64,000 nucleotides of DNA from Actinomycetes bacterium (lineage in GTDB: Bacteria > Actinomycetota > Acidimicrobiia > Acidimicrobiales > Ilumatobacteraceae): contig JANYCT010000034.1 in NCBI GenBank assembly GCA_025360105.1, positions 1-64,000 on the forward strand. Direction: 5' to 3'. Positions 45,553-60,274 of this stretch are shown in pieces. Position numbers and translations under genes: made by a program. The notes beneath the pieces are model-generated. The model searched no databases and had not been told where the DNA came from. It saw only the letters and a list, made by a program, of their open reading frames with translations. Position 1 is the stretch's first letter, and every line of letters begins with the position of its first letter.

Positions 45553-46623
45553 ATGGACGACCGAGTCAACCTCATCGTGATCTTCGGCGGACAATCGGCC
45601 GAGCACGATGTCAGCTGCGTCACCGCAACACACGTGCTGCGCGCCGTCGACCAGACCCGCTACCGGATCACACCCATCGGCATCAACCGTGACGGTCAAT
45701 GGCAGCTCGCCACCGCCGCGCTCGCAGCGCTCGCCGCCGGCCCGGCAGCACTCCCCGATCGCCTCGAGGCAACCGGCGAGGAACTGTCGCCCACCCCCAT
45801 GCTCACCGCCGCTGCCTCGGCCGGACCGGTGGTGGTGATCCCGCTGCTGCACGGGCCACTGGGCGAGGACGGCACGGTGCAGGGATTACTCGAACTCATG
45901 GACGTGCCCTACGTGGGCAGCGGCGTGCTGGGTTCGGCCGTTGGAATGGACAAGGCACTCGCCAAGGAGGTGCTCGGGTTCCACGGGATCGCGCAGGCGC
46001 GCTGGGTGAGCCTGCGCGAGCACGAACTCACCCCAACTCGGTTGGTGGCGATCGCTGACGAACTCGGGTTGCCGGTGTTCGTCAAGCCCTCGAACATGGG
46101 CTCGTCAGTCGGCGTGAGCAAGGCCTCCACGATCGAGGAACTGCAGGCGTCGGTCGAGCACGCGCTGAGCTACGACGAGTGGGTGGTCATCGAAGAAGCC
46201 ATCGTCGGGCGAGAGATCGAAGTCGCCGTGCTCGGCAACCTCGACCCACAGGCCAGCGCCCCCGGCGAGATCGTTCCCGGCAAGGACTTCTACGATTACG
46301 AAGACAAGTACCTTGCCGATGGCGCGCAGTTGTTGATCCCTGCACCGCTGACAGAAGCACAGTCCACTGAGGTGCGCGCCCGCGCCGTGCAGGTGTATCA
46401 GGCGCTGCGCTGCGAAGGCCTGGCCCGCGTCGACTTCTTCTTCGAGGAATCAGCGAGAGGTTTTCTCATCAACGAGGTCAACACGATGCCCGGATTCACG
46501 CCCATCTCGATGTACCCGAAGATGTGGCAGCACAGCGGGCTCGCCTACCCCGAACTCGTCGATCGCCTCATCGACCTCGCCTTCGAGCGACACGATCGTC
46601 GTCGCCGAAACACCAAGCGCTGA
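45553..46623 (+). CDS. ddl: D-alanine-D-alanine ligase
   Basis: VIFGGQSAEHDVSCVTA, LHGPLGEDGTVQGLLELMDVPYVGSGVLGSAVGMDK, INEVNTMPGFTPISMYPKMW. Confidence 0.97.
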   Translation: MDDRVNLIVIFGGQSAEHDVSCVTATHVLRAVDQTRYRITPIGINRDGQWQLATAALAALAAGPAALPDRLEATGEELSPTPMLTAAASAGPVVVIPLLHGPLGEDGTVQGLLELMDVPYVGSGVLGSAVGMDKALAKEVLGFHGIAQARWVSLREHELTPTRLVAIADELGLPVFVKPSNMGSSVGVSKASTIEELQASVEHALSYDEWVVIEEAIVGREIEVAVLGNLDPQASAPGEIVPGKDFYDYEDKYLADGAQLLIPAPLTEAQSTEVRARAVQVYQALRCEGLARVDFFFEESARGFLINEVNTMPGFTPISMYPKMWQHSGLAYPELVDRLIDLAFERHDRRRRNTKR

Positions 46624-46628
46624 AGTCG

Positions 46629-47228
46629 TCAGGGGCGAAGCGCGGCGAGCAGGAACTCGGTGAGCTCTCGGCGGAGTCGGCGTAAGCCCGCCGTGGTGCC
46701 CTGCCATTCGACTGCCGCAAGCGCAGTAGGTTCGGTGGCGATGCCGGTCACCGTCGCATAAGCGAGCGAAACGACCAGACCAGGGTCGGCCTGGCGGAGT
46801 CGGCCGGCGGCCATCTCCTGCTCAAGATAGTCGGTGGCGCGACGCACGAACGGACGCACGCGCATGGTGAGCCGTTCGGCGTGCTCGGGTGACAGGCGAC
46901 TGACTTCGCGCACGAGACCCAACAGCGCCGGACGACGCACGGCCGGACGAAAGACAGCGTTGACCACGGCCTCCACCCTGGCGAGAGGTTCGTCGGGGGC
47001 AGCACGCACGGCGGCTTCGATCACGGCCGCCAACTCGCTGGCAGTCTGCTCGAGCACGGCATCGAGCAGCTCGTCTTTCGACGGAAACCAGTACAGCACG
47101 GTCTGTTTGGCGACGCCGACGACGCCCGCGATGTCGTCGAGCGACACGGCGGCAAAGCCCCGACCCCCGAACAGGTCGACGCTGGCTTCGAGGATCGATG
47201 CTCGTGTCGTGCCTTTTCGGGTAACCAT
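46629..47228 (-). CDS. TetR family transcriptional regulator
   Basis: RASILEASVDLFGGRGFAAVSLDDIAGVVGVAKQTVLYWFPSKDELLDAV. Confidence 0.94.
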   Translation of the reverse strand: MVTRKGTTRASILEASVDLFGGRGFAAVSLDDIAGVVGVAKQTVLYWFPSKDELLDAVLEQTASELAAVIEAAVRAAPDEPLARVEAVVNAVFRPAVRRPALLGLVREVSRLSPEHAERLTMRVRPFVRRATDYLEQEMAAGRLRQADPGLVVSLAYATVTGIATEPTALAAVEWQGTTAGLRRLRRELTEFLLAALRP

Positions 47229-47234
47229 CGCTCT

Positions 47235-47248
47235 CTACCATATGGTAG
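47235..47248. promoter_or_regulatory. palindromic operator candidate CTACCATATGGTAG
   Basis: Perfect 14-bp palindrome in the 59-bp divergent intergenic gap between the TetR gene and the FAR-HAD gene. Confidence 0.7.
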
Positions 47249-47286
47249 AAAGAGACCTGTGAAAACGATTGCGGGGCTGTCACGCC

Positions 47287-49653
47287 ATGATTGCTGAGCA
47301 ACTCGACGGCACACGGATCGCGATCACGGGTTCCACCGGCTTCGTGGGCACGGCGCTCGTGGAGCGGCTGCTCCGTAGCGTGCCGGGTTGTTCGCTGGTG
47401 TTGCTCATTCGCGGCGGCAAGCGCGGCGCCCCCGAACGAGCACGCCGCGAGATCTTCAAAAACGACGCGTTCGACAGGCTGAAGGAGGAACTTCGCGAGA
47501 CGGCCGAGCCCTTTGACGCCATGCTCGAACGACGAGTCATCACCGTCAACGGCGATGTGAGTACTGATGGTCTCGGACTCAGCGAGGCCGACCGCGCCAT
47601 CTTCGCGAGCTGCGATGTGATCATCCACTCGGCCGCCGCCGTCGCGTTCGACTCACCGCTCGACACCGCCGTAGAGATCAACCTGCTCGGGCCCACGCGT
47701 GTGGCTCAGACCCTCAACGACATGAACGTGACCCCGCACCTCGTTGCGGTCAGCACGTGCTACGTGGCCGGCAACCGACGCGGCAACGCGCCCGAGGAAC
47801 TCGTCAGCGAAGGGCCTTTCGATCTCGGCCTCAACTGGCGCAAGGAGGTCGCTGCGGCGCGGCGTCTGCGCAGCGACACCGAGGCAGCGAGCCGCCTGCC
47901 CGAGCAACTACGCGAGTTCCGATCCGACGCACGCAAGGAACTCGGCGCGGCCGGCGCGCCCGCACTCGCCAGCAAGACAGAACACATCCGCGAAAAGTGG
48001 TGCACTGATCAGCTCGTCGAGGCAGGGCGTGCCCGCGCAGCGAGCATCGGTTGGCCCGACGCGTATGCCTACACCAAGGCCCTTGGCGAGCAGGCGTTGA
48101 TGGAGACGAAGGGCAACGTGCCCGTGAGCATCGTTCGCCCGAGCATCATCGAGTCGGCCTTGGCCGAGCCACGGCCTGGCTGGATCCGCGGCTTCCGAAT
48201 GGCCGAGCCCGTGATCATCAGCTACGCCCGCGGTCTGCTCACCCAGTTCCCCGGTGTCCCGGAGGGAACCGTCGACGTGATCCCGGTCGACATCGTTGTC
48301 GCAGCGATCATCGCTGTAGCCGCAATGGGACCCGAGCACGCACCGCGCATCACGCAGGTGGCAAGCGGCGGCATCAACCCGCTCAAGTACAAGACGCTCG
48401 TCGACAACGTGCGCACCTGGTTCACCGAGCATCCGCTATACGACGCCGAGGGTCAGCCCATCGTGGTACCCGAATGGCAGTTCCCGGCGCGCGGCAAGGT
48501 GCAGCAACAGCTCAAGCGGGCCAAGACGGTGGTCACCCGCACCGAGCGAGCCCTGCAGGCGTTGCCGTTGCGCGGCACCCAGGCAACCTGGGCAGCCAAG
48601 CTCGAAGAGCGCAAGCACGACATCGAGCGCGCATACGAGTACGTGCAGCTGTACGGGCTCTACACCGAGTGCGAAGCCATCTATCAGGTCGATAATCTGA
48701 TGAAGGTCTGGGACTCGCTGCCCGCGACCGATCAAGCCGCGTTCAACTGCGATCCGCGCTCGGTCGATTGGCCCAAGTACGTCACCACCATTCACCTGCC
48801 GTCGGTTGTTGCACATGCACGAGTCAAGAGCACCCCGGGCAAGAACCGCAACGACCGCGCCGATCGACTGCGCCGCAATGTGCTGTCACCCGAGCGCCAC
48901 GTGGCCGCCTTCGACCTAGAGAACACGCTGATCTCCAGCAACGTCGTGGAAAGCTTTTCGTTCCTGGCAACGCGACGACTGAACATGCCCGAGCGCATGC
49001 GATATGTACTGCGCACGTTGGCTCAGGCCCCTGGGTTGTCGAGCATGGACCGCAAGGACCGCGCCGATTTCCTGCGCTACTTCTATCGTCGTTACGAAGA
49101 TGCCCCAGTGGCGCAGATCGACGAGGACTCCAAGGATCTGCTCACGCAGTTGATCATCACCAAGAGCTTCCCCGCTGGCATGCGGCGGGTGCGCGAGCAC
49201 CGCGCCCTCGGGCACCGCACGGTGCTCATCACCGGCGCACTCGACTTCGCTGTGGCCGGGCTGAAGCCGTTGTTCGACGAGATCGTCGCGGCGGAGATGA
49301 CTGTACGACCCGACGGCACCTACAGCGGCGAGCTCGCCAAGGTTCCACCCACCGGCGAGACTCGCGCCCAGGTGTTGGCCGACTACTGCAAGGCCGAGGG
49401 CTTCCTGCTCGAAGAATGCGTTGCGTACGCCGACAGCACGTCTGACCTGCCACTGCTGGAATGTGTCGGGTTCCCGGTTGCGGTGAACCCAGAGACCCGC
49501 CTCGCAGCCATCGCTCGAAAGCGTGGTTGGCTCGTCGAGGAATGGGAGAAGGCCCCCGGCGGACCGAGGCCCCTGCTGCCCATCGGCACGATGCTGAGCG
49601 AACGCGAACGCAAGCGAACCTTTGTCGGCAGCGCACCACGGAGCCGTTTCTGA
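47287..49653 (+). CDS. fatty acyl-CoA reductase-like SDR fused to HAD-IB-like domain
   Basis: N-term ITGSTGFVGTALVERLL and YAYTKALGEQ (Yxx(x)K-type); C-term AAFDLENTLISSNVVESFSFLA...GHRTVLITGALDFAVAGL...YADSTSDLPLLECVGFPVAVNPE. Confidence 0.88.
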   Translation: MIAEQLDGTRIAITGSTGFVGTALVERLLRSVPGCSLVLLIRGGKRGAPERARREIFKNDAFDRLKEELRETAEPFDAMLERRVITVNGDVSTDGLGLSEADRAIFASCDVIIHSAAAVAFDSPLDTAVEINLLGPTRVAQTLNDMNVTPHLVAVSTCYVAGNRRGNAPEELVSEGPFDLGLNWRKEVAAARRLRSDTEAASRLPEQLREFRSDARKELGAAGAPALASKTEHIREKWCTDQLVEAGRARAASIGWPDAYAYTKALGEQALMETKGNVPVSIVRPSIIESALAEPRPGWIRGFRMAEPVIISYARGLLTQFPGVPEGTVDVIPVDIVVAAIIAVAAMGPEHAPRITQVASGGINPLKYKTLVDNVRTWFTEHPLYDAEGQPIVVPEWQFPARGKVQQQLKRAKTVVTRTERALQALPLRGTQATWAAKLEERKHDIERAYEYVQLYGLYTECEAIYQVDNLMKVWDSLPATDQAAFNCDPRSVDWPKYVTTIHLPSVVAHARVKSTPGKNRNDRADRLRRNVLSPERHVAAFDLENTLISSNVVESFSFLATRRLNMPERMRYVLRTLAQAPGLSSMDRKDRADFLRYFYRRYEDAPVAQIDEDSKDLLTQLIITKSFPAGMRRVREHRALGHRTVLITGALDFAVAGLKPLFDEIVAAEMTVRPDGTYSGELAKVPPTGETRAQVLADYCKAEGFLLEECVAYADSTSDLPLLECVGFPVAVNPETRLAAIARKRGWLVEEWEKAPGGPRPLLPIGTMLSERERKRTFVGSAPRSRF

Positions 49654-50846
49654 TGAAGGCGCTGCAGGTTTCACGCAAGGTTGCTCGCCTCGGCCTGGCC
49701 CGCATGGTGTCGGCGATCAGCCCCTCGGCCGCCGCTCGCATCGGCCCGATCGAGTTGGTCAACATCGATCCCCCGGAGTCTCTGGGCGAGGGATGGCACC
49801 AGGTGACCACCCGACTCAGCGGCATCTGCGGCAGCGACCTGAGCACCATAGAGGGCCATGCGTCCACCTACTTCGACGACTGGGTGAGCTTCCCGTTCGT
49901 GCCGGGCCATGAGGTGGTCGGCGAGCTCGCTGACGGCACTCGCGTCGTCATCGAACCGGTGCTCGGCCATGCCGCGCGCGGATTTCCATTGCCGTTTCCT
50001 GACGCCGCACCCGGCGACGGCGACGACTACGCCCATCTTGCCCTGCCCCCGCTCGAGCCGGGCATCCAGACCGGCTTCTGTCACAGCACAGGTGGCGGCT
50101 GGAGCACCACGTTCCTGGCGCACGAGAGCCAACTGCATCATGTGCCGTTCGACATGAGCGACGAGGCAGCCGTCATGATCGAGCCCGCGGCCGGTGGCAT
50201 TCACAGTGCGCTGCTGTGCTGGCCGTCGCTGGTCGGTGTCGAGAACCCGATCGTGGCGGTGCTCGGTGCCGGAACCATGGGTCTGTGCGCCATTGCCGGA
50301 CTGCGTCGTTACGTGCCGGGCGTCAAGATCCTCGTCGGTGCGCGCTATCCCCATCAGCAATCGCTGGCGCACAGTATGGGTGCCGACATCGTGGTCGCTC
50401 CGGGCGAATTGGCGCGGGCCGTTCGTCGCGAAATCGGTTGCCACGTGGTGGGCGACTACCTCAGCGGTGGGGCGCACGCCACCATCGACGCGGTAGGCAA
50501 CAGCGGCTCGATCGCCACCTGCCTGCAGATCACCAAGCCTCGCGGCCGCGTCGTGCTGATGGGCATGCCGGCCGAGGTCACCGTGGATCTCACCGGCCTC
50601 TGGCACCGAGAGACCCAGATCGTTGGCGCCTACACCTACGGCACCGAAACCCTGCCCGATGGTTCGCGGCGACGCACGTTCGACTTGGCCATGGACACCG
50701 TGGTTGCCTGCGACATGGCCCGCATGGTGTCGGCCACCTACCCGCTCGATGATTACGAAGATGCCATTTCACACGCTGCCAGCGCCGGGCGCCGCGGCGC
50801 GGTGAAGGTGGCCTTCGATTTACGTTCCACGAAGGAGAAGCACTGA
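49653..50846 (+). CDS. zinc-binding alcohol dehydrogenase family protein
   Basis: LSGICGSDLSTIEGH, PFVPGHEVVGEL, VAVLGAGTMGLCAIAGL; TGATG overlap with upstream gene. Confidence 0.9.
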   Translation: MKALQVSRKVARLGLARMVSAISPSAAARIGPIELVNIDPPESLGEGWHQVTTRLSGICGSDLSTIEGHASTYFDDWVSFPFVPGHEVVGELADGTRVVIEPVLGHAARGFPLPFPDAAPGDGDDYAHLALPPLEPGIQTGFCHSTGGGWSTTFLAHESQLHHVPFDMSDEAAVMIEPAAGGIHSALLCWPSLVGVENPIVAVLGAGTMGLCAIAGLRRYVPGVKILVGARYPHQQSLAHSMGADIVVAPGELARAVRREIGCHVVGDYLSGGAHATIDAVGNSGSIATCLQITKPRGRVVLMGMPAEVTVDLTGLWHRETQIVGAYTYGTETLPDGSRRRTFDLAMDTVVACDMARMVSATYPLDDYEDAISHAASAGRRGAVKVAFDLRSTKEKH

Positions 50847-52432
50847 TGCCTCGCCCCGGATTTGTCCTCGAGGTGGACCGCAATACGCCACCGATCATGT
50901 TCTGGCGCGGCGAGGGTTTCAGCCTCGAAAAGCTGCCCGCCGGACGTAGCCGAGTCATCTATGCACCGGAACCCGAGAAGGCGCTCGACGACATCGACGG
51001 CGCCATTCGCCATGCTCTGCTCAATCCGTACGACCACGACCCGCTGCCCGCACTCATGTTTCCCGGCATGAAGCTCACGATCGCATTCGACGATGTCAGC
51101 CTGCCACTCCCCCCGATGCGCCGGCCCGATATCCGCCAACGCGTGATCGAAGCTGTGCTCGACATCGCAGCCGACGCCGGAGTCGACGACGTGCACATCA
51201 TCGCCGCGCTCGCGCTGCACCGGCGCATGACCGAGGCTGAGTTGCGTCACGCCGTCGGTGACCGCGTCTATGACGCATTTGCCCCGCACGGGTTGCTGTA
51301 CCAGCACGACGCCGAAGACCCTGACGCGCTCGAATACCTCGGGGCCACGCCCCAAGGTGAAGACGTAGAGATCAACAAGCGCGCGGCCAACAGCGACCTG
51401 CTCGTGTACGTGAACATCAACCTCGTCGCGATGGATGGCGGCTGGAAGAGCACGGCCACGGGACTCAGCAGCTACAAGAGTCTGCAGCATCATCACAATC
51501 CCAAGACCATGGAGGCCAGCCGCAGCTTCATGGATCAGCACAAGAGCGAGTTGCACAAGAGCAACTGGCGCATGGGCAAGGTGCTCGTGGACAGCGGCGT
51601 GAAGGTGTTCCAGATCGAGACCACGATGAACACCGACACGTTCCCCAAGCCGTTCGACTTCTTGTCCAAGCGCGAGTGGGAATGGAACGCAAAGGATCGC
51701 GCGAGTTTCATCGGCGTGTCGGCCGCGTTGAAGCGCACCCCGAACCGCATGGCGCGCAACATCTTCCACGGCATCGAAGCACCGCACCAGATGACCAGCG
51801 TGCAGGCTGGCGAGGTGGGTGCGGTACACAAGGTGACCACCGAAAACGTGTACCGCCAACAACTCGTCGAGGTGCAGGGCCAGACCGACATCCTCACGAT
51901 GGGTATTCCCTACATCTGCCCCTACAACGTGAACTCGATCATGAATCCGATCCTGGTGATGTGCATGGGCTTGGGCTATCTCTTCAACATGTACCGCGGC
52001 ATGCCGCTGGTGCGCGAGGGCGGCGTGGTGATCATGACGCATCCCACACCCATCGAGTTCAATCCAGTGCACCATCCGAGCTACATCGACTTTTTCGAAC
52101 AGGTGCTCAGCGAGACCACTGACCCGTATGTGATGAGTCAGAAGTATGAGAAGTCCTTTGCCGAAGACGAGTGGTACAAGCACCTCTATCGCACCGGCCA
52201 CGCCTACCACGGCGTGCACCCGTTCTACATGTGGTACTGGGGCAGCCACGGGATGCAGCATTGCAGCCGCGTGATCATCGTCGGCGGCGATGTGAAAGCC
52301 GTGCGCCGCCTTGGTTTCACGCCGGCCTCCACCATGGACGACGCGTTCGAGATTGCATCCGATGTGGTCGGCCGTACCCCCACCATCAGCCACCTGCACG
52401 CACCACCGCTCATGGTGTGCGACGTGAAATGA
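50846..52432 (+). CDS. LarA/DUF2088-like (lactate racemase domain) protein
   Basis: ALALHRRMTEAELRHAVG and MDGGWKSTATGLSSYKSLQHHHNP match LarA blocks; TGATG overlap with upstream gene. Confidence 0.8.
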   Translation: MPRPGFVLEVDRNTPPIMFWRGEGFSLEKLPAGRSRVIYAPEPEKALDDIDGAIRHALLNPYDHDPLPALMFPGMKLTIAFDDVSLPLPPMRRPDIRQRVIEAVLDIAADAGVDDVHIIAALALHRRMTEAELRHAVGDRVYDAFAPHGLLYQHDAEDPDALEYLGATPQGEDVEINKRAANSDLLVYVNINLVAMDGGWKSTATGLSSYKSLQHHHNPKTMEASRSFMDQHKSELHKSNWRMGKVLVDSGVKVFQIETTMNTDTFPKPFDFLSKREWEWNAKDRASFIGVSAALKRTPNRMARNIFHGIEAPHQMTSVQAGEVGAVHKVTTENVYRQQLVEVQGQTDILTMGIPYICPYNVNSIMNPILVMCMGLGYLFNMYRGMPLVREGGVVIMTHPTPIEFNPVHHPSYIDFFEQVLSETTDPYVMSQKYEKSFAEDEWYKHLYRTGHAYHGVHPFYMWYWGSHGMQHCSRVIIVGGDVKAVRRLGFTPASTMDDAFEIASDVVGRTPTISHLHAPPLMVCDVK

Positions 52433-52442
52433 GCCGTCTCTG

Positions 52443-53465
52443 ATGGGCAAGCGCGACGATGCCATTCGCAATGTCACCGGCATCCGCCGCGCCGCGCGCG
52501 CCGCTGGATACGTGGAGTCCGTTGTCAACAGGGCCTTCAAACCGGTGTCGTCGAAGGGCTTTCCGTATCGCAAGCCCAACGTGCCGCGCGGCGTGGTCGT
52601 GCCGCGCGAACCATCCACGCTCGGTGCCGACTTCGAGACGGCGTGGGCGCGTAAATATCCCGCACGTCTCGGACGTGCGATGCTCACCCAGGGACCGATG
52701 CGTTGGCTCACCAAGGCCGTGGCCGCACCCACCGTGAAGGGCGCAGACCGACTTGAGGACCTGCGCATGCTCGAAACGCCACCGCCGCTCATCTTCACAC
52801 CCAACCATCACAGCCACCTCGATACCCCACTGTCGATTTATGCGATCCCCGAGCCATGGCGACACAAACTCGTAGTGGCTGCGGCCGCCGACTACTTCTT
52901 CACCACTCGCACCAAGGGCGGCGCCGCAGCGTTGGTCCTCAACGCGCTGCCCATCGATCGCGAAACCACCGGACGCAAGTCAGCCGATCAGATTCGCGAT
53001 CTCATGGCCGATGGTTGGAGTCTGCTCATCTATCCCGAGGGTGGCCGCTCCCCCGACGGTTGGGGGCAGGACTTCAAGGGCGGGGCCGCGTATCTCTCTG
53101 CGCGCACCGGCGCCGCGGTCGTGCCGATGTTCATTGATGGCACCGGGCCGATCTACGGCAAGGGGATGAAGCGTCCCAAGCCGGGTCGCACCACGGTGGT
53201 GTTCGGCAGCCCGTTGCGCGCCGAACCCGACGAGAACACACGCCGGTTCAACGCCCGCATCGAGTCGGCGGTGATGTTGCTCGGCGACGAGACGCTCACC
53301 GACTACTGGACCGCGCGTCGCAACGCCGCATCGGGGGCCAGCCCGCGCCTCACCGGACCCGAATACAACAGTTGGCGGCGCGAGTGGGCGCTCGGCGAGC
53401 GTCGTCAACTCGGCGATGCAGGTCTGCGTCGACGCCAGAAGCGCCGCTGGCCCGACATCGGCTGA
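52443..53465 (+). CDS. 1-acyl-sn-glycerol-3-phosphate acyltransferase family (PlsC)
   Basis: NHHSHLDTPL (HX4D), LLIYPEGGRSPDGW, FKGGAAYLSARTGAAVVPMFIDGT. Confidence 0.9.
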   Translation: MGKRDDAIRNVTGIRRAARAAGYVESVVNRAFKPVSSKGFPYRKPNVPRGVVVPREPSTLGADFETAWARKYPARLGRAMLTQGPMRWLTKAVAAPTVKGADRLEDLRMLETPPPLIFTPNHHSHLDTPLSIYAIPEPWRHKLVVAAAADYFFTTRTKGGAAALVLNALPIDRETTGRKSADQIRDLMADGWSLLIYPEGGRSPDGWGQDFKGGAAYLSARTGAAVVPMFIDGTGPIYGKGMKRPKPGRTTVVFGSPLRAEPDENTRRFNARIESAVMLLGDETLTDYWTARRNAASGASPRLTGPEYNSWRREWALGERRQLGDAGLRRRQKRRWPDIG

Positions 53466-53557: not shown

Positions 53558-54187
53558 CTAGCCGGTTTTGGTGGGGAGCTTGATCTTGAGGCCTTTGTAG
53601 ATGAGGTGGTTGGCGTCGGCCCAACCGTTCACTGCGACGATCGCTGCGACGGTGGTGCCGTTCTTGGTCGCGATGCGCGACAGCGTGTCACCGTCGACAA
53701 CGACGTAGGTGCCGCCGGCCGACGCGTTGACCGTAGTGGTGGTCTGCGTAGGCGTCGCTCGGGGCGCCGTTGTGGCGGTCGTCGAACCACCAGTCGAACC
53801 ACCGGCTACTGGGGGAGTAGCTCCCGGCGGAATTTTGATCTTCAGCCCGGGGTAGATGAGGTGTGTCACTCCGTCGGCCCAGGTGTTGTAATCGGCAATA
53901 CCCTGCGCGGTCACGCCGTACTTTTTGGCGATGCGCACAAGAATGTCGCCGGAGAGGACGGTGTATTCCTGCTCGCCGGCGACGGTCGCGGTGGGGTCGC
54001 CGGGCTGAGCCACCTGTGTCGTAGATGGCACAGTGCTGGTGAGAATGGGCACGGCGGTGATGTAGTCCGGAGCGCTCATTTTGATCGTGGTGACGGGCGA
54101 TGCGCCGCTGCCGCCGCTGCTGCCGCATGCGGAGACGCCAACCACCGTCAGCGCGCTGACACCTATCAATAGAACTCGTGACTTCAT
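53558..54187 (-). CDS. lipoprotein with two LysM domains
   Basis: Lipobox VGVSAC; LysM-like YTVLSGDILVRIAKKYGVTAQGIADYNTW...LIYPGLKIKIPP and YVVVDGDTLSRIATKNGTTVAAIVAVNGW...LIYKGLKIKLP. Confidence 0.9.
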   Translation of the reverse strand: MKSRVLLIGVSALTVVGVSACGSSGGSGASPVTTIKMSAPDYITAVPILTSTVPSTTQVAQPGDPTATVAGEQEYTVLSGDILVRIAKKYGVTAQGIADYNTWADGVTHLIYPGLKIKIPPGATPPVAGGSTGGSTTATTAPRATPTQTTTTVNASAGGTYVVVDGDTLSRIATKNGTTVAAIVAVNGWADANHLIYKGLKIKLPTKTG

Positions 54188-54247
54188 GGGCGAGAGTTTA
54201 GGGCTCTGGTCGCCGAAAGGGCAGTCACCACAGACCGAGCAGCCTGC

Positions 54248-55699
54248 TCACGCAAGCGGACGGGTACTTGCGAGCACGGGCGACGGCAGATGGGTCTCGC
54301 CCATCAGATACCGATCTACGCTCGCCGCAGCGGCGCGGCCCTCGGCGATGGCCCACACGATGAGGCTCTGGCCGCGGCCCATGTCGCCGGCCACAAATAC
54401 CCCGGGGACCGCTGACACGAACTCGTCGCTACGACCAAGGTTGCCGCGTTCGTCGAACGTGACGCCGAGCTGATCGAGCCACGAACCCTTCGCGGGACCG
54501 ACGAAGCCGAGCGCAAGGAACACCAGATCGGCGGGCAGTTCGCGATCGGTGCCTTCGATCTTGGTGAACTTGCCACCCACCATCTCGACCTCGTGAATCA
54601 GCAGCGCACGCACATTGCCGTTCTCATCGCCGAGGAACCGCTCGGTGTTCACACTGAAGACGCGCTCGCCTCCCTCTTCGTGCGCAGACGATGCACGCAG
54701 AATGAGGCTCCATTGCGGCCACGGGTTCTCGGCGCCGCGTACCTCAGGCGGCTGCGGCATGATCTCGAGCTGCGTCACCGATGCCGCACCTTGACGGTGT
54801 GACGTGCCCAGGCAATCAGCCCCCGTATCGCCGCCGCCGATGATGACCACGTGCTTACCAGAGGCATCGATGGCCGCTGATTCGGAATCGCCCTGCTGGA
54901 CTCGATTGGCCAACGGCAAGAACTCCATGGCCTGATAGATACCAGAGAGTTCGCGTCCGGGAATCGGAAGATCGCGCCACGCCGTCGCACCGCAGGCGAG
55001 CACCAATGCGTCGTTCATGGCCAACAACACATCGATGTCGATGTTCTCACCAACGCCAGCATTGGTGCGGAACTCCGTGCCCTCGGCCTCCATCTGTTCG
55101 ATGCGACGATCGAGGTGGCGCTTTTCCATCTTGAACTCGGGGATGCCGTAACGCAGTAGCCCACCGATGCGGTCGGCACGCTCGAGCACCACAACATCGT
55201 GGCCCGCGCGCGTGAGCTGTTGAGCGCTGGCCAAGCCTGCGGGGCCCGAACCGATCACGACGACGCGCTTGCCCGTCTTCACCGACGGTAACTGCGGCGT
55301 GACCCAGCCTTCATCCCACGCGCGGTTGATGATTTCCACCTCGACCTGCTTGATGGCGACCGCGTCGGCGTTGATGCCAAGCACGCATGCCGACTCGCAC
55401 GGCGCCGGGCACAGACGACCGGTGAACTCGGGGAAGTTGTTCGTGGCGTGCAGTCGGTCGATCGCGTCGCGCCAGTGGTCGCGATAGACGAGGTCATTCC
55501 AGTCGGGGATCAGGTTGCCGAGCGGGCAGCCGTTGTTGCAGAACGGAATGCCACAGTCCATGCAACGTCCGGCCTGCAGCTTCAGATGTTCGACGTCGAA
55601 GGGTTCGTAGACCTCGTTCCAGTCGCGCAGGCGCACAGGCACCGCACGACGGGTCGGCGTCTCGCGCGGCCACTTCATGAATCCAGTTGCCTCACCCAT
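54248..55699 (-). CDS. gltD: glutamate synthase small subunit
   Basis: GRCMDCGIPFCNNGCPLGNLIPDWNDLVY, RLCPAPCESACVLGI, VIGSGPAGLASAQQLTRAGHDVVVLERADRIGGLLRYGIPEFKMEK. Confidence 0.96.
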   Translation of the reverse strand: MGEATGFMKWPRETPTRRAVPVRLRDWNEVYEPFDVEHLKLQAGRCMDCGIPFCNNGCPLGNLIPDWNDLVYRDHWRDAIDRLHATNNFPEFTGRLCPAPCESACVLGINADAVAIKQVEVEIINRAWDEGWVTPQLPSVKTGKRVVVIGSGPAGLASAQQLTRAGHDVVVLERADRIGGLLRYGIPEFKMEKRHLDRRIEQMEAEGTEFRTNAGVGENIDIDVLLAMNDALVLACGATAWRDLPIPGRELSGIYQAMEFLPLANRVQQGDSESAAIDASGKHVVIIGGGDTGADCLGTSHRQGAASVTQLEIMPQPPEVRGAENPWPQWSLILRASSAHEEGGERVFSVNTERFLGDENGNVRALLIHEVEMVGGKFTKIEGTDRELPADLVFLALGFVGPAKGSWLDQLGVTFDERGNLGRSDEFVSAVPGVFVAGDMGRGQSLIVWAIAEGRAAAASVDRYLMGETHLPSPVLASTRPLA

Positions 55700-58600
55700 C
55701 ACACACTCTCCATCACACGCGCGTTGGTTTCGTCTTCGGTCAGGCCCTCGGCGCGCGATTCGCGGATGACTCCGAGCACTCGCTTGTAGTCGCGGGGCAT
55801 CACTTTGCGGAACTGCGCTGCCGCACCGGGCCATGCATCGACGAGGCCCGCTGCAACTGGCGACTGGGTGAGATCGCGATGACGCGTCACGATGTCGAGG
55901 AGGAACGCCGTGTCGTCGTCGTCGAGCGACTCGAGGTCGACCATGTCACCGTTCACCAATGCTGCAAACGTCTCATTCGGGTCATACACGTAGGCGATGC
56001 CGCCGCTCATACCCGCCGCGAAGTTGCGCCCAGTGGCCCCGAGGACAACCACGCGGCCACCTGTCATGTACTCGCATCCGTGATCGCCGATGCCCTCAAC
56101 GACTGCGGTGGCACCGGAGTTGCGCACGCAGAATCGTTCACCGACGACGCCGCGCAGGAAGATCTCCCCGCTCGTCGCGCCGTAGCCGATCACGTTGCCC
56201 GCGATCACGTTGTTCTCCGCCGCGAACGTGGCCCGACGATCGGGGGCCACGATGATGCGACCGCCGCTGAGCCCCTTACCGACGTAGTCGTTGGCGTCAC
56301 CCTCGAGGCGCAGCTCGATGCCTGCAGGAACGAAGGCACCAAAGCTCTGGCCTGCCGAGCCGCGAAACTGGATCGCGATCGTGCCGTCGGCCAAGCCGTT
56401 GCCGCCCCACGCCTTGGTGACGGCCGCGCCGAGCATCGTGCCAACGGTGCGGTTCACGTTGTGGATCTGCATCGCGAACGACACCGGATGGCCATCCTGC
56501 AGGGCGGGCGCCGACTGCGCGATGAGCTGCTGATCAAGGGCAATGCCGAGCCCATGGTCCTGCGCCACGGAGTGGTGCAACGTCTGCCCGTAACGATTCT
56601 GCGGCACCGCCAGGATCGGGCTGATGTCGAGCCCGGCGGCCTTCCAATGCGAGATCGCAGCTCGCGTATCGAGCATTTCGACGTGACCGATCATCTCGGT
56701 CATTGTGCGGAACCCGAGCTGGGCCATCAGCTCGCGCACCTCTTCGGCGATGAACTGCATGAAGTTGACCACGAACTCCGGCTTGCCACTGAACTTGGCG
56801 CGCAGCTCGGGATTCTGCGTGGCCACGCCCACCGGGCAGGTGTCGAGATGGCATACGCGCATCATCACGCAACCACTCACCACGAGTGGCGCAGTGGCAA
56901 AGCCGAACTCCTCGGCACCGAGCAGCGCTGCTACGACCACGTCGCGACCGGTCTTGAGCTGACCATCAGTCTGCACCACGATGCGATCGCGAAGGCCGTT
57001 GAGCAACAACGTCTGCTGGGTTTCGGCCAGACCGAGTTCCCATGGTCCACCGGCGTGCTTGAGCGACGTGAGCGGCGACGCACCCGTGCCGCCGTCGTGA
57101 CCACTGATCAGCACCACATCGGCCTTGGCCTTGCTCACGCCGGCGGCCACAGTGCCCACGCCCATCTCGGCCACGAGCTTTACGTGCACGCGAGCCGCCG
57201 GGTTTGCGTTCTTCAGGTCATGGATGAGCTGCTTGAGATCTTCGATGGAGTAGATGTCGTGGTGCGGCGGCGGACTGATCAGGCCGACGCCCGGCGTGCT
57301 GTGTCGGGTCTTGGCGATCCACGGATACACCTTGTGGCCGGGCAGCTGACCGCCCTCACCGGGCTTTGCACCCTGGGCCATCTTGATCTGAATGTCGTCG
57401 GCGTTCACCAAGTACTCGCTGGTGACACCGAAGCGCCCGCTCGCGACCTGCTTGATACTGCTGCGCCGCCGTGGATCAACGAGTCGGTCGCTGTCCTCTC
57501 CACCCTCACCTGTGTTGCTCTTCGCACCGATCGAGTTCATTGCGATGGCGAGCGTCTCATGGGCTTCGGCGCTGATGCTGCCGTAGCTCATCGCGCCCGT
57601 CGAGAACCGCTTCACGATCTCGTCCACGGATTCGACCTCGTCGATGGGTACAGGAGTGCGATCACCGGGGGCGAACTCGAACAGGCCACGCAACGTCGCC
57701 AGCTTCTTGGACTGGTCGTCGATCAAGTTGGTGTACTGCTTGAAGATGTCGTAGCGCTTGGCGCGGGTGGCGTGTTGCAGCTTGAAGACCGTCTCGGGAT
57801 TGAACAAGTGCACCTCGCCCTCGCGGCGCCACTGGTATTCGCCTCCGAGTTCGAGCTTGCGATGGGCACGCTCCTCGGGACGGGTGGGGTGTGCATGCGC
57901 GTGTCGCGCCGCAACCTCCATCGTGACCTCGTCGATGCCGATACCGCCGAGACGGCTTACCGTGCCGGTGAAGTATTCGTCGACGAGCTCGTGCCCCAGA
58001 CCGATGGCCTCGAAGATCTGCGCGCCGGTGTAGGACGCAACGGTGCTGACACCCATCTTCGACATCACCTTCAGTACGCCCTTGCCACTGGCCTTGATGA
58101 AGTTCTTGACCGCCTTGTGCGGGTCCATCCCGCCGAGACCGTTGAGGTCTTCGCGGATCATGTCCTCAATGGATTCGAACGCGAGATACGGGTTGATCGC
58201 GCCTGCGCCATAGCCCACGAGCAGCGCCATGTGATGCACCTCGCGGGCATCGCCACATTCCACCACGAGGCCCACCTGGGTCCGGGTCTTCTCGCGAATG
58301 AGGTGATGGTGCACCGCTGCAGTGAGCAGCAGCGACGGAATGGGCGCAAGCACCTCGTCACCATTGCGGTCGCTGAGCACAATGATGCGCGCCCCGTCGG
58401 CGATCGCGCGGCTGGCCTCGGAACGAATGGCATCGAGTGCCCGACGCAATGCCAGGCCGCCGCCGGCGACGCGGTAGAGGCCGCTGATGGTCACCGACTT
58501 CAACTGCGGGTGCGCGTCGTCATCGTTGATGTGCACGATCTTGGCGAGCTCGTCGTTGTCGATCACGGGGAACGGCAACACCAACTGGCAGCAGCTCTCG

Positions 58601-60249
58601 GGTCCGGGCTCGAGCAGGTTGTGCTCGGGCCCCACGGTGGAGCCCACCGCGGTGACGACCTCTTCGCGGATCGCGTCGAGCGGCGGGTTGGTGACCTGTG
58701 CGAACAACTGCTGGAAGTAGTCGAAGATCAATCGCGGCCGCTCGCTGAGCACCGCAATGGGCGTATCGGTGCCCATCGACCCGAGCGGCTCGGCGCCCGC
58801 CTTGGCCATTGGCGCCACGATGATCTTGAGCTCTTCGTGGGTGTAGCCGAACACCTGCTGACGACGCAACACACTCATGTGACTGAACTCGACATGCTCG
58901 TGATCGGGTAGATCGCCCAACTCCACGAGGCCCGCGTCGAGCCACTCTTGGTAGGGATGCTCCGTGGCCAACGTGGACTTGATCTCGTCATCTTCGACGA
59001 TGCGACCCTTGGCGGTGTCCACCAAGAACATTCGGCCCGGCTGGAGCCGGCCCTTCTTTACGATGCGCGCTGGATCGATGTCGATCACGCCGGTCTCACT
59101 GGCGAGCACCACGAGATCGTCGTCGGTCACCCAGTAACGGCCCGGCCGCAACCCGTTGCGGTCAAGCACCGCGCCGATGACTGTGCCGTCGGTGAACGCA
59201 ACGCTGGCGGGACCATCCCACGGCTCCATCAGGGATGAGTGGAAGCGATAGAACGCCCGCTTGGCGGGGTCCATGATGTCGTTGTTCTCCCACGCCTCAG
59301 GGATCATCATCAACATCGCATGTGGCAGCGAACGGCCACCGAGGTGCAGCAGTTCGAGCACCTCATCGAAGCTCGCCGAATCGGATCCACCGGGTGTGCA
59401 GATCGGAAAGGCACGTTCGAGACCCGGCAGATGGCCACTGCTCACGAGCGCCTCGCGCGTGCGCATCCAGTTGCGGTTGCCCTGCACGGTGTTGATCTCG
59501 CCGTTGTGGGCGATGTAGCGATACGGGTGCGCGAGTGGCCACGACGGGAATGTGTTCGTGCTAAAGCGACTGTGCACGAGGGCGAGCGCACTCTCGACGC
59601 GCTGATCGGCGAGATCGGGGAAGAACATCGCCAACTGTGGTGTGGTGAACATGCCCTTGTAGATCAGCGTCCTGCTCGACAACGAGGGAAAGTACGTGCT
59701 GTGTTCGCTCGGCAGCTCGTGCTCGATGCGCTTACGTGCCACGAACACACGGCGGTCCAGATCGATGCCTGACGCCGGGGTATCGACGCTCGCATCGGTG
59801 AGGAACAGTTGCTTGAAGCTCGGCATCACCTCGCGGGCGCTGGCACCGAGACAAGCGGGAGAGATCGGCACCTCGCGCCAGCCGATCGTGCGCAGGCCTT
59901 CCTGCCCGGCAATCTCTGAGATAGACGCCATCGCCTTTGCGGCGTCCGCTGGATCGGCAGGCAAGAAGGCGAGACCCACTGCGTATTGGCCCACGGGCGG
60001 CAGGTCGAACCCAGCCACGGCGCGCAGGAACGCATCGGGGATCTGAATCAGGATGCCGGCGCCGTCGCCGGTGTCTGCCTCGGCACCGGTGGCACCACGG
60101 TGCTCCATGTTGCACAGGGCGCCGATGCCCATCGCAACGATGGCGCGGCTGGGCACACCATTGATGTTCGCAACGAACGAGACGCCACAGGCATCGTGTT
60201 CGAACCGCGGGTCATACAGCCCTGAGGGCGCGGGGTAATTGTTGTGCAT
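55699..60249 (-). CDS. gltB: glutamate synthase large subunit
   Basis: [19 protein letters not shown] (N-terminal Cys glutaminase), [36 protein letters not shown]-terminal alpha subunit glycine-rich repeats. Confidence 0.97.
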
Positions 60250-60274
60250 CGTCCACATCCACTGAAGTCGGTTT

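Follow-up and report, generated by a model that had tools for sequence, protein, structure and literature searches.

A conserved FAR-HAD/LarA-like gene cassette of Acidimicrobiia and its candidate role in lipid tailoring

The window analyzed here is a 64,000-nucleotide stretch of contig JANYCT010000034.1 from a member of the Ilumatobacteraceae (assembly GCA_025360105.1). It contains four same-strand genes that encode a fatty acyl reductase fused to a HAD domain (FAR-HAD), a zinc-dependent dehydrogenase, a homologue of LarA, and a PlsC-like acyltransferase, with a divergent TetR gene in front of them. The cassette is conserved across related bacteria, its FAR-HAD and LarA-like genes are coupled in presence and absence, and the LarA-like gene of the source genome is under strong purifying selection while the cofactor genes larB, larC, and larE have decayed. 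This retention is the most surprising result of the analysis, and it goes beyond anything claimed in a first-pass annotation of the DNA. Comparative sequence data suggest to us a conserved TetR-repressed operon that would tailor membrane or membrane-associated lipids, starting from a fatty alcohol or aldehyde, a reading to which we give about an even chance.

Conservation and Gene Coupling

Gene neighborhoods were read in the best 80 LarA-like loci from GTDB genomes, nearly all of which are labeled Acidimicrobiia or Actinomycetota, and 67 of these loci are long enough for gene-order counts. Occurrence was also scored in samples of 148 genomes from the order and 297 from the phylum. The LarA-like gene adjoins cassette genes in the best 80 loci. 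Among cultivated type strains, Ilumatobacter nonamiensis YM16-303 (locus L086) carries the cassette. The FAR-HAD, dehydrogenase, LarA-like, and PlsC genes are collinear in 56 of the 67 long loci, 47 of which also have the divergent TetR gene, so that the co-occurrence of all four families across actinobacteria, proposed as a check in the first-pass annotation, is indeed found. A chance grouping of unrelated genes is ruled out by this conservation. Spacing between neighbors is tight throughout the homologous loci (median of about −16 to +5 nt). Within the order, the LarA-like family is present in 133/148 genomes, nearly always inside the cassette (108/115 among good genomes). A cassette so widespread would fit a structural or housekeeping lipid better than a niche metabolite. 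Farther afield, the cut-off of the family model NF052592 is exceeded in 72/297 genomes of the phylum sample, spread over many other families, and 15 loci from other families of the phylum hold the FAR-HAD, dehydrogenase, and LarA-like genes together, with PlsC adjoining the LarA-like gene in eight of them.

The tightest link is that between FAR-HAD and the LarA-like protein, which belongs to the group known as LarAH14. FAR-HAD is absent from every near-complete genome without LarAH14 that was tested, with only its HAD part giving distant matches, and the exceptions to the coupling are two genomes (G070 and G126) that are 80-83% complete. Over 98 loci, the tree distances of the two proteins are correlated with r = 0.89. 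The first-pass annotation had named a lack of conservation, or a LarA-like gene beside unrelated genes elsewhere, as findings that would speak against a shared system. The former clearly fails, and the latter holds only for relatives of about 35-41% identity (G170, G233, G198, G223, and G395); these score under the family cut-off, and FAR-HAD is missing from those that were searched for it.

The locus spans positions 46629-53465 of the window from the TetR gene to PlsC. One-base stop/start overlaps join FAR-HAD to the dehydrogenase (49653) and the dehydrogenase to the LarA-like gene (50846), and a 10-base gap separates the latter from PlsC. The four-gene arrangement, the divergent TetR gene, and the palindrome thus lie, by open reading frame coordinates, where the first-pass annotation had placed them, and its gene-family calls are borne out by strong domain searches for all five proteins. 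Scans for sigma-70 promoters and terminators gave no signal exceeding shuffles.

The LarA-like Protein and Its Cofactor Supply

The LarA-like protein (528 aa; 50846-52432, + strand) matches Lar_N at 2.7e-36 and scores 891.1 bits over its full length (1.8e-268) against NF052592, the model for nickel-pincer nucleotide (NPN)-dependent hydroxyacid isomerases of the LarAH14/15/16 type, well above the cut-off of 740. The main texts consulted on the family mention no lipid-gene context such as the one seen here, and a literature search found no demonstrated substrate for any member. The AlphaFold model (pLDDT 94.5) is closest to the single-histidine LarA-like structures 9q3k (best) and 9q3j and then to LarA itself. 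Residue equivalences to LarA were taken from a phmmer alignment, and conservation was scored over 86 homologues. On this basis, D83, H125, K201, and H217 align with D72, H108, K184, and H200 of LarA and are invariant, as is the neighboring D82, so that the cofactor residues (D72, K184, and H200 in LarA) and the first catalytic His108 all have counterparts. The carboxylate-binding R75 and the second catalytic His174 of LarA do not, being replaced by Leu86 (Leu in 84/86) and Asn192 (Asn in 84/86). The LarA-like protein can therefore probably hold the nickel-pincer cofactor, and standard two-histidine racemization of a 2-hydroxy carboxylate is not likely to be its reaction. Residue 200, just before the cofactor Lys, is Trp or His in about half of the homologues each; as a marker of cofactor loss it was set aside, with no clear correlation to the loss of LarE.

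According to published work, LarAH groups 14 and 15 are without the second histidine (PMC12611868), and a LarAH14 protein from Frankia sp. was negative for all seven activities assayed, with the suggestion that such proteins may catalyze a different hydride-mediated reaction (PMC7583248). A lack of conservation at the catalytic and cofactor residues led that study to exclude group 16. The best matches in both fold and sequence are the single-histidine enzymes of Blautia wexlerae (9q3j) and Streptococcus plurextorum (9q2u/9q3k; PMC12611868), which share with the LarA-like protein an Asn at the second histidine position and the retained cofactor residues. However, identity in the fold alignments is only about 19-24%, these enzymes have Lys at the carboxylate position where Leu stands here, and their genes lie in a carbohydrate context rather than a lipid-type one.

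Within the order, LarE is found in 130/148 genomes and LarC in 126/148, and about 113/131 genomes have no Lar_N protein other than LarAH14. LarAH14 and LarE occur together in 123 of the 148 genomes, with eight having neither, 10 having LarAH14 only, and seven having LarE only (odds ratio 14, Fisher p = 4e-5, counting genomes as independent and leaving shared ancestry uncorrected). Together, these observations argue for use of the cofactor in most species.

The source genome departs from this pattern. A search of it for larB, larC, and larE, as recommended in the first-pass annotation, recovered only eroded copies, whereas most of its genus mates, like most genomes of the order, have intact genes. 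LarE is recovered in pieces as 160/268 codons (contig C24:6200-6900, L012), LarB as 106/248, and LarC as 266/412 (both from contig C8:25000-28500, L011), with several internal deletions and frameshifts in each region. By comparison, LarC is intact in 8/8 and LarE in 7/8 genus mates, and the nearest relative, whose LarA-like protein is 98% identical, has an intact LarE. Relative to this sister, the source branch has accumulated 27 vs 6 amino-acid changes in LarE and 3 vs 6 in LarAH14; against G148, which larE coordinates identify as the same sister genome, the counts are 28 vs 2 for LarB and 26 vs 14 for LarC. The dN/dS of LarAH14 against the sister is 0.02. The genome is a draft; an assembly artefact is nonetheless unlikely because three genes on two contigs show both deletions and excess substitutions and because the flank beside larE is conserved.

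Five further genomes that are 95-98% complete (G017, G019, G108, G034, and G118) gave no LarE or LarC match, and in all of them the LarA-like gene still adjoins FAR-HAD and PlsC. Together with the source genome, they occupy four places in the LarAH14 tree, and K201, H217, and H125 remain invariant in these lineages. Loss of the dehydrogenase gene was also considered as a correlate of larE loss and was inconsistent across loci. In the lineages without lar genes, either the protein acts without an endogenous cofactor, or it receives the cofactor from an external source, or the genes were lost only recently or are in part merely missing from the data.

Partner Proteins and the Operator

FAR-HAD (788 aa; 47287-49653, + strand, from an ATG at 47287, with a TTG at 47269 as a possible alternative) consists of a Male sterility NAD_binding_4 domain (5e-56), a FAR_C "Sterile" domain (3.7e-9), and a C-terminal HAD-IB domain (HAD, 4.1e-23). 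Residues 2-511 align with DPW, a fatty acyl reductase of rice (7eoz; 1.4e-59, Foldseek 1.5e-32), and the catalytic set of Ser156/Thr157, Tyr260, and Lys264 is invariant among homologues; the protein thus has both the domains and the Ser/Tyr/Lys set of a fatty acyl reductase. The HAD part is less regular. Its motif I reads D543-L-E545 (DLENTL, residues 543-548) rather than the DxDx(T/V) of HAD-IB phosphatases. The remaining motifs are mostly kept, and the score against TIGR01490 (94.8 bits) is just under the cut-off of 98.3. The domain is a presumed phosphatase.

The dehydrogenase (397 aa; 49653-50846, + strand) is a zinc-dependent enzyme of the medium-chain (MDR) type (ADH_zinc_N 5.6e-14, ADH_N 2.8e-7) with Cys59, His86, and Glu87 invariant in 94 homologues. 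Among solved structures, ketose reductase and sorbitol dehydrogenase are the nearest to it. PlsC (340 aa; 52443-53465, + strand) matches the acyltransferase family PF01553 at 2.3e-15, above its cut-off, and the HX4D and EGxRS-type motifs are present in 98-100 of 100 homologues, as expected of a PlsC/AGPAT enzyme; the narrower model TIGR00530 gave 42.7 bits, below its cut-off of 103.

The divergent gene (46629-47228, − strand) encodes a TetR-family repressor (PF00440, TetR_N, 1.7e-12), and a homologue of it is present in 66 loci. A palindrome with 14-nt arms, the putative operator, lies at 47228-47255 and contains the perfect 16-mer TCTACCATATGGTAGA (47234-47249), which is separated from the TetR start by five bases. 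With one mismatch tolerated, this core has a single occurrence in the window and none in 100 shuffles. The pattern YTACCNNNNGGTARA is found upstream of FAR-HAD in 63/66 loci that have the TetR homologue and in 1/27 loci that lack it, with just two matches in the remaining 1.74 Mb. That the palindrome tracks the TetR homologue across loci is strong comparative evidence that the protein would bind between the divergent genes. The proposal in the first-pass annotation that the operon is TetR-controlled gains support from this conserved operator, and the ligand is probably an acyl or alcohol compound.

Just upstream of the TetR gene is a D-Ala-D-Ala ligase gene (45553-46623), an apparently conserved neighbor in about half of the related loci. 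After PlsC, as judged by eye, the opposite strand (53558-60258, −) holds a LysM-type protein gene and putative genes for the small and large subunits of glutamate synthase.

Proposed Pathway and Alternatives

In the pathway that we infer, the FAR domain would turn a long-chain acyl thioester into a fatty aldehyde or alcohol. The zinc dehydrogenase, where present, could interconvert hydroxyl and carbonyl groups, either on the resulting chain or on a polyol paired with it. The LarA-like protein would use its one histidine (H125) and, in most species, the nickel-pincer cofactor to alter a carbon bearing a hydroxyl group by hydride transfer, and PlsC would acylate the hydroxyl product. TetR at the palindrome would repress the operon. 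All of this is conditional as to substrates, the sequence of steps, the product, and what the LarA-like protein catalyzes; family membership supports well only the chemistry predicted for the first step (acyl reduction) and the last (acylation). What stands from the coupled lipid pathway envisaged in the first-pass annotation is the gene families, the operon, and their co-occurrence, and the lipid product stays something that we infer; the ordinary LarA 2-hydroxyacid chemistry that it included finds no support in the form given there.

Several observations weigh against this pathway. The dehydrogenase is the sole missing cassette member in 8/67 long loci, and no dehydrogenase gene separates FAR-HAD from the LarA-like gene in 12 loci (L047, L051, L054, L055, L057, L076, L083, L038, L094, L096, L097, and L112), which leaves FAR-HAD, the LarA-like gene, and PlsC as a three-gene core. 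PlsC itself is not adjacent in the six loci of family f77; with the dehydrogenase missing from at least 12 loci, neither gene is strictly required at the locus. The solved relatives of the dehydrogenase use polyols or ketoses rather than fatty alcohols. The second motif I Asp of the HAD domain, the general acid/base, is Glu in 96/110 homologues and Asp in 14, an unusual conserved change. Finally, in the source genome, the nickel-pincer step could not run as drawn unless the cofactor is imported.

The nearest functional parallel, a loose one, is the elb operon of Myxococcus xanthus (PMC9131029), which likewise brings a FAR1-like reductase, an AGPAT-like acyltransferase, and a HAD phosphohydrolase together in one operon for an unusual lipid. 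A more specific form of our proposal follows its example: FAR alcohol would enter an O-alkyl glycerolipid, PlsC would acylate the second position, and the LarA-like protein and dehydrogenase would adjust the glycerol or dihydroxyacetone part. The clustering of the same parts and the need for elbD in the formation of alkyl ether lipids favor this ether-lipid route. However, ElbD is a single protein with ACS, ACP, FAR, and AGPAT domains, whereas FAR is here fused to HAD, and no ACS, ACP, or AGPS domain is found in the cassette, with AGPS not searched elsewhere in the genome. Moreover, fatty alcohols from the FAR domain of ElbD were not detected (PMC9131029), and elb has neither a LarA-like protein nor a zinc dehydrogenase. 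We regard the ether-lipid form as a tentative option. Storage of wax esters or triacylglycerol is a weaker rival and seems to us unlikely. There, FAR would supply fatty alcohol and PlsC phosphatidate for a WS/DGAT encoded elsewhere, and Ilumatobacter genomes do contain several WS/DGAT genes. In Actinomycetota, HAD-AGPAT fusions adjoin such genes in glycerolipid clusters with HAD and PF01553 domains, whose trees include Ilumatobacter (PMC10351704). In those clusters, though, HAD is fused to the acyltransferase and WS/DGAT is present, whereas our cassette has HAD fused to FAR, no WS/DGAT, and an added LarA-like gene, for which storage offers no role even though it is the gene most tightly coupled to FAR-HAD. 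Long-chain 1,2-diols were considered as the product as well, and a literature search yielded no tie to the cassette.

As for the LarA-like step, the idea in the first-pass annotation, taken as inversion of a 2-hydroxyacyl chain by a nickel-pincer 2-hydroxyacid racemase of the ordinary kind, draws on the retained fold and cofactor residues and on the way LarAH14 presence goes with LarE. Such a step is doubtful because of the Leu86 and Asn192 replacements, the eroded larB, larC, and larE here, and three other lineages without larE and larC; with the Frankia protein negative in its seven assays, and with LarAH14 changed at only three residues while the source lar genes eroded, we consider it the least probable of the readings weighed here. 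A different possibility, which we hold to be a minority one, is that in some lineages the protein is independent of home-made cofactor, as an apo-protein, with another hydride carrier, or with cofactor from other organisms. The excess changes and large deletions in the source lar genes, set against the purifying selection on LarAH14, point this way, as do the five genomes that retain the LarA-like gene with FAR-HAD and PlsC. Against it, the cofactor residues and H125 are invariant even there, cofactor uptake is hypothetical, the absences are based on draft genomes, and the loss in the source genome could be recent. Returning to the lipid-tailoring operon, its most far-reaching version would be a one-histidine LarA fold without a carboxylate anchor whose hydride chemistry is directed at an alcohol or aldehyde of a lipid instead of racemizing a 2-hydroxyacid, in a previously undescribed, near-core pathway of Acidimicrobiia and other actinobacteria, several lineages of which, the source included, are without endogenous nickel-pincer synthesis. 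We advance this version with considerable reserve.

Conclusions

The component families are known, and the system as a whole appears to be undescribed. In agreement with the first-pass annotation, which knew of no characterized pathway with this gene set, the open-access literature contains no paper that we found to describe the cassette, although Table S1 of PMC7583248 (gene neighbors of LarAH group 14) may already tabulate part of the context. LarAH14-type proteins, a named family, are now tied to FAR-HAD as a single, tightly conserved partner and in most cases to a lipid acyltransferase as well, and the link holds in almost every genome sampled from a bacterial order with few cultivated members. 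What would have been a blind substrate screen is thereby narrowed to a short list of long-chain aldehydes, alcohols, diols, and alkyl-glycerol compounds, and natural lineages can be named in which the need of a LarA protein for the nickel-pincer cofactor is directly testable.

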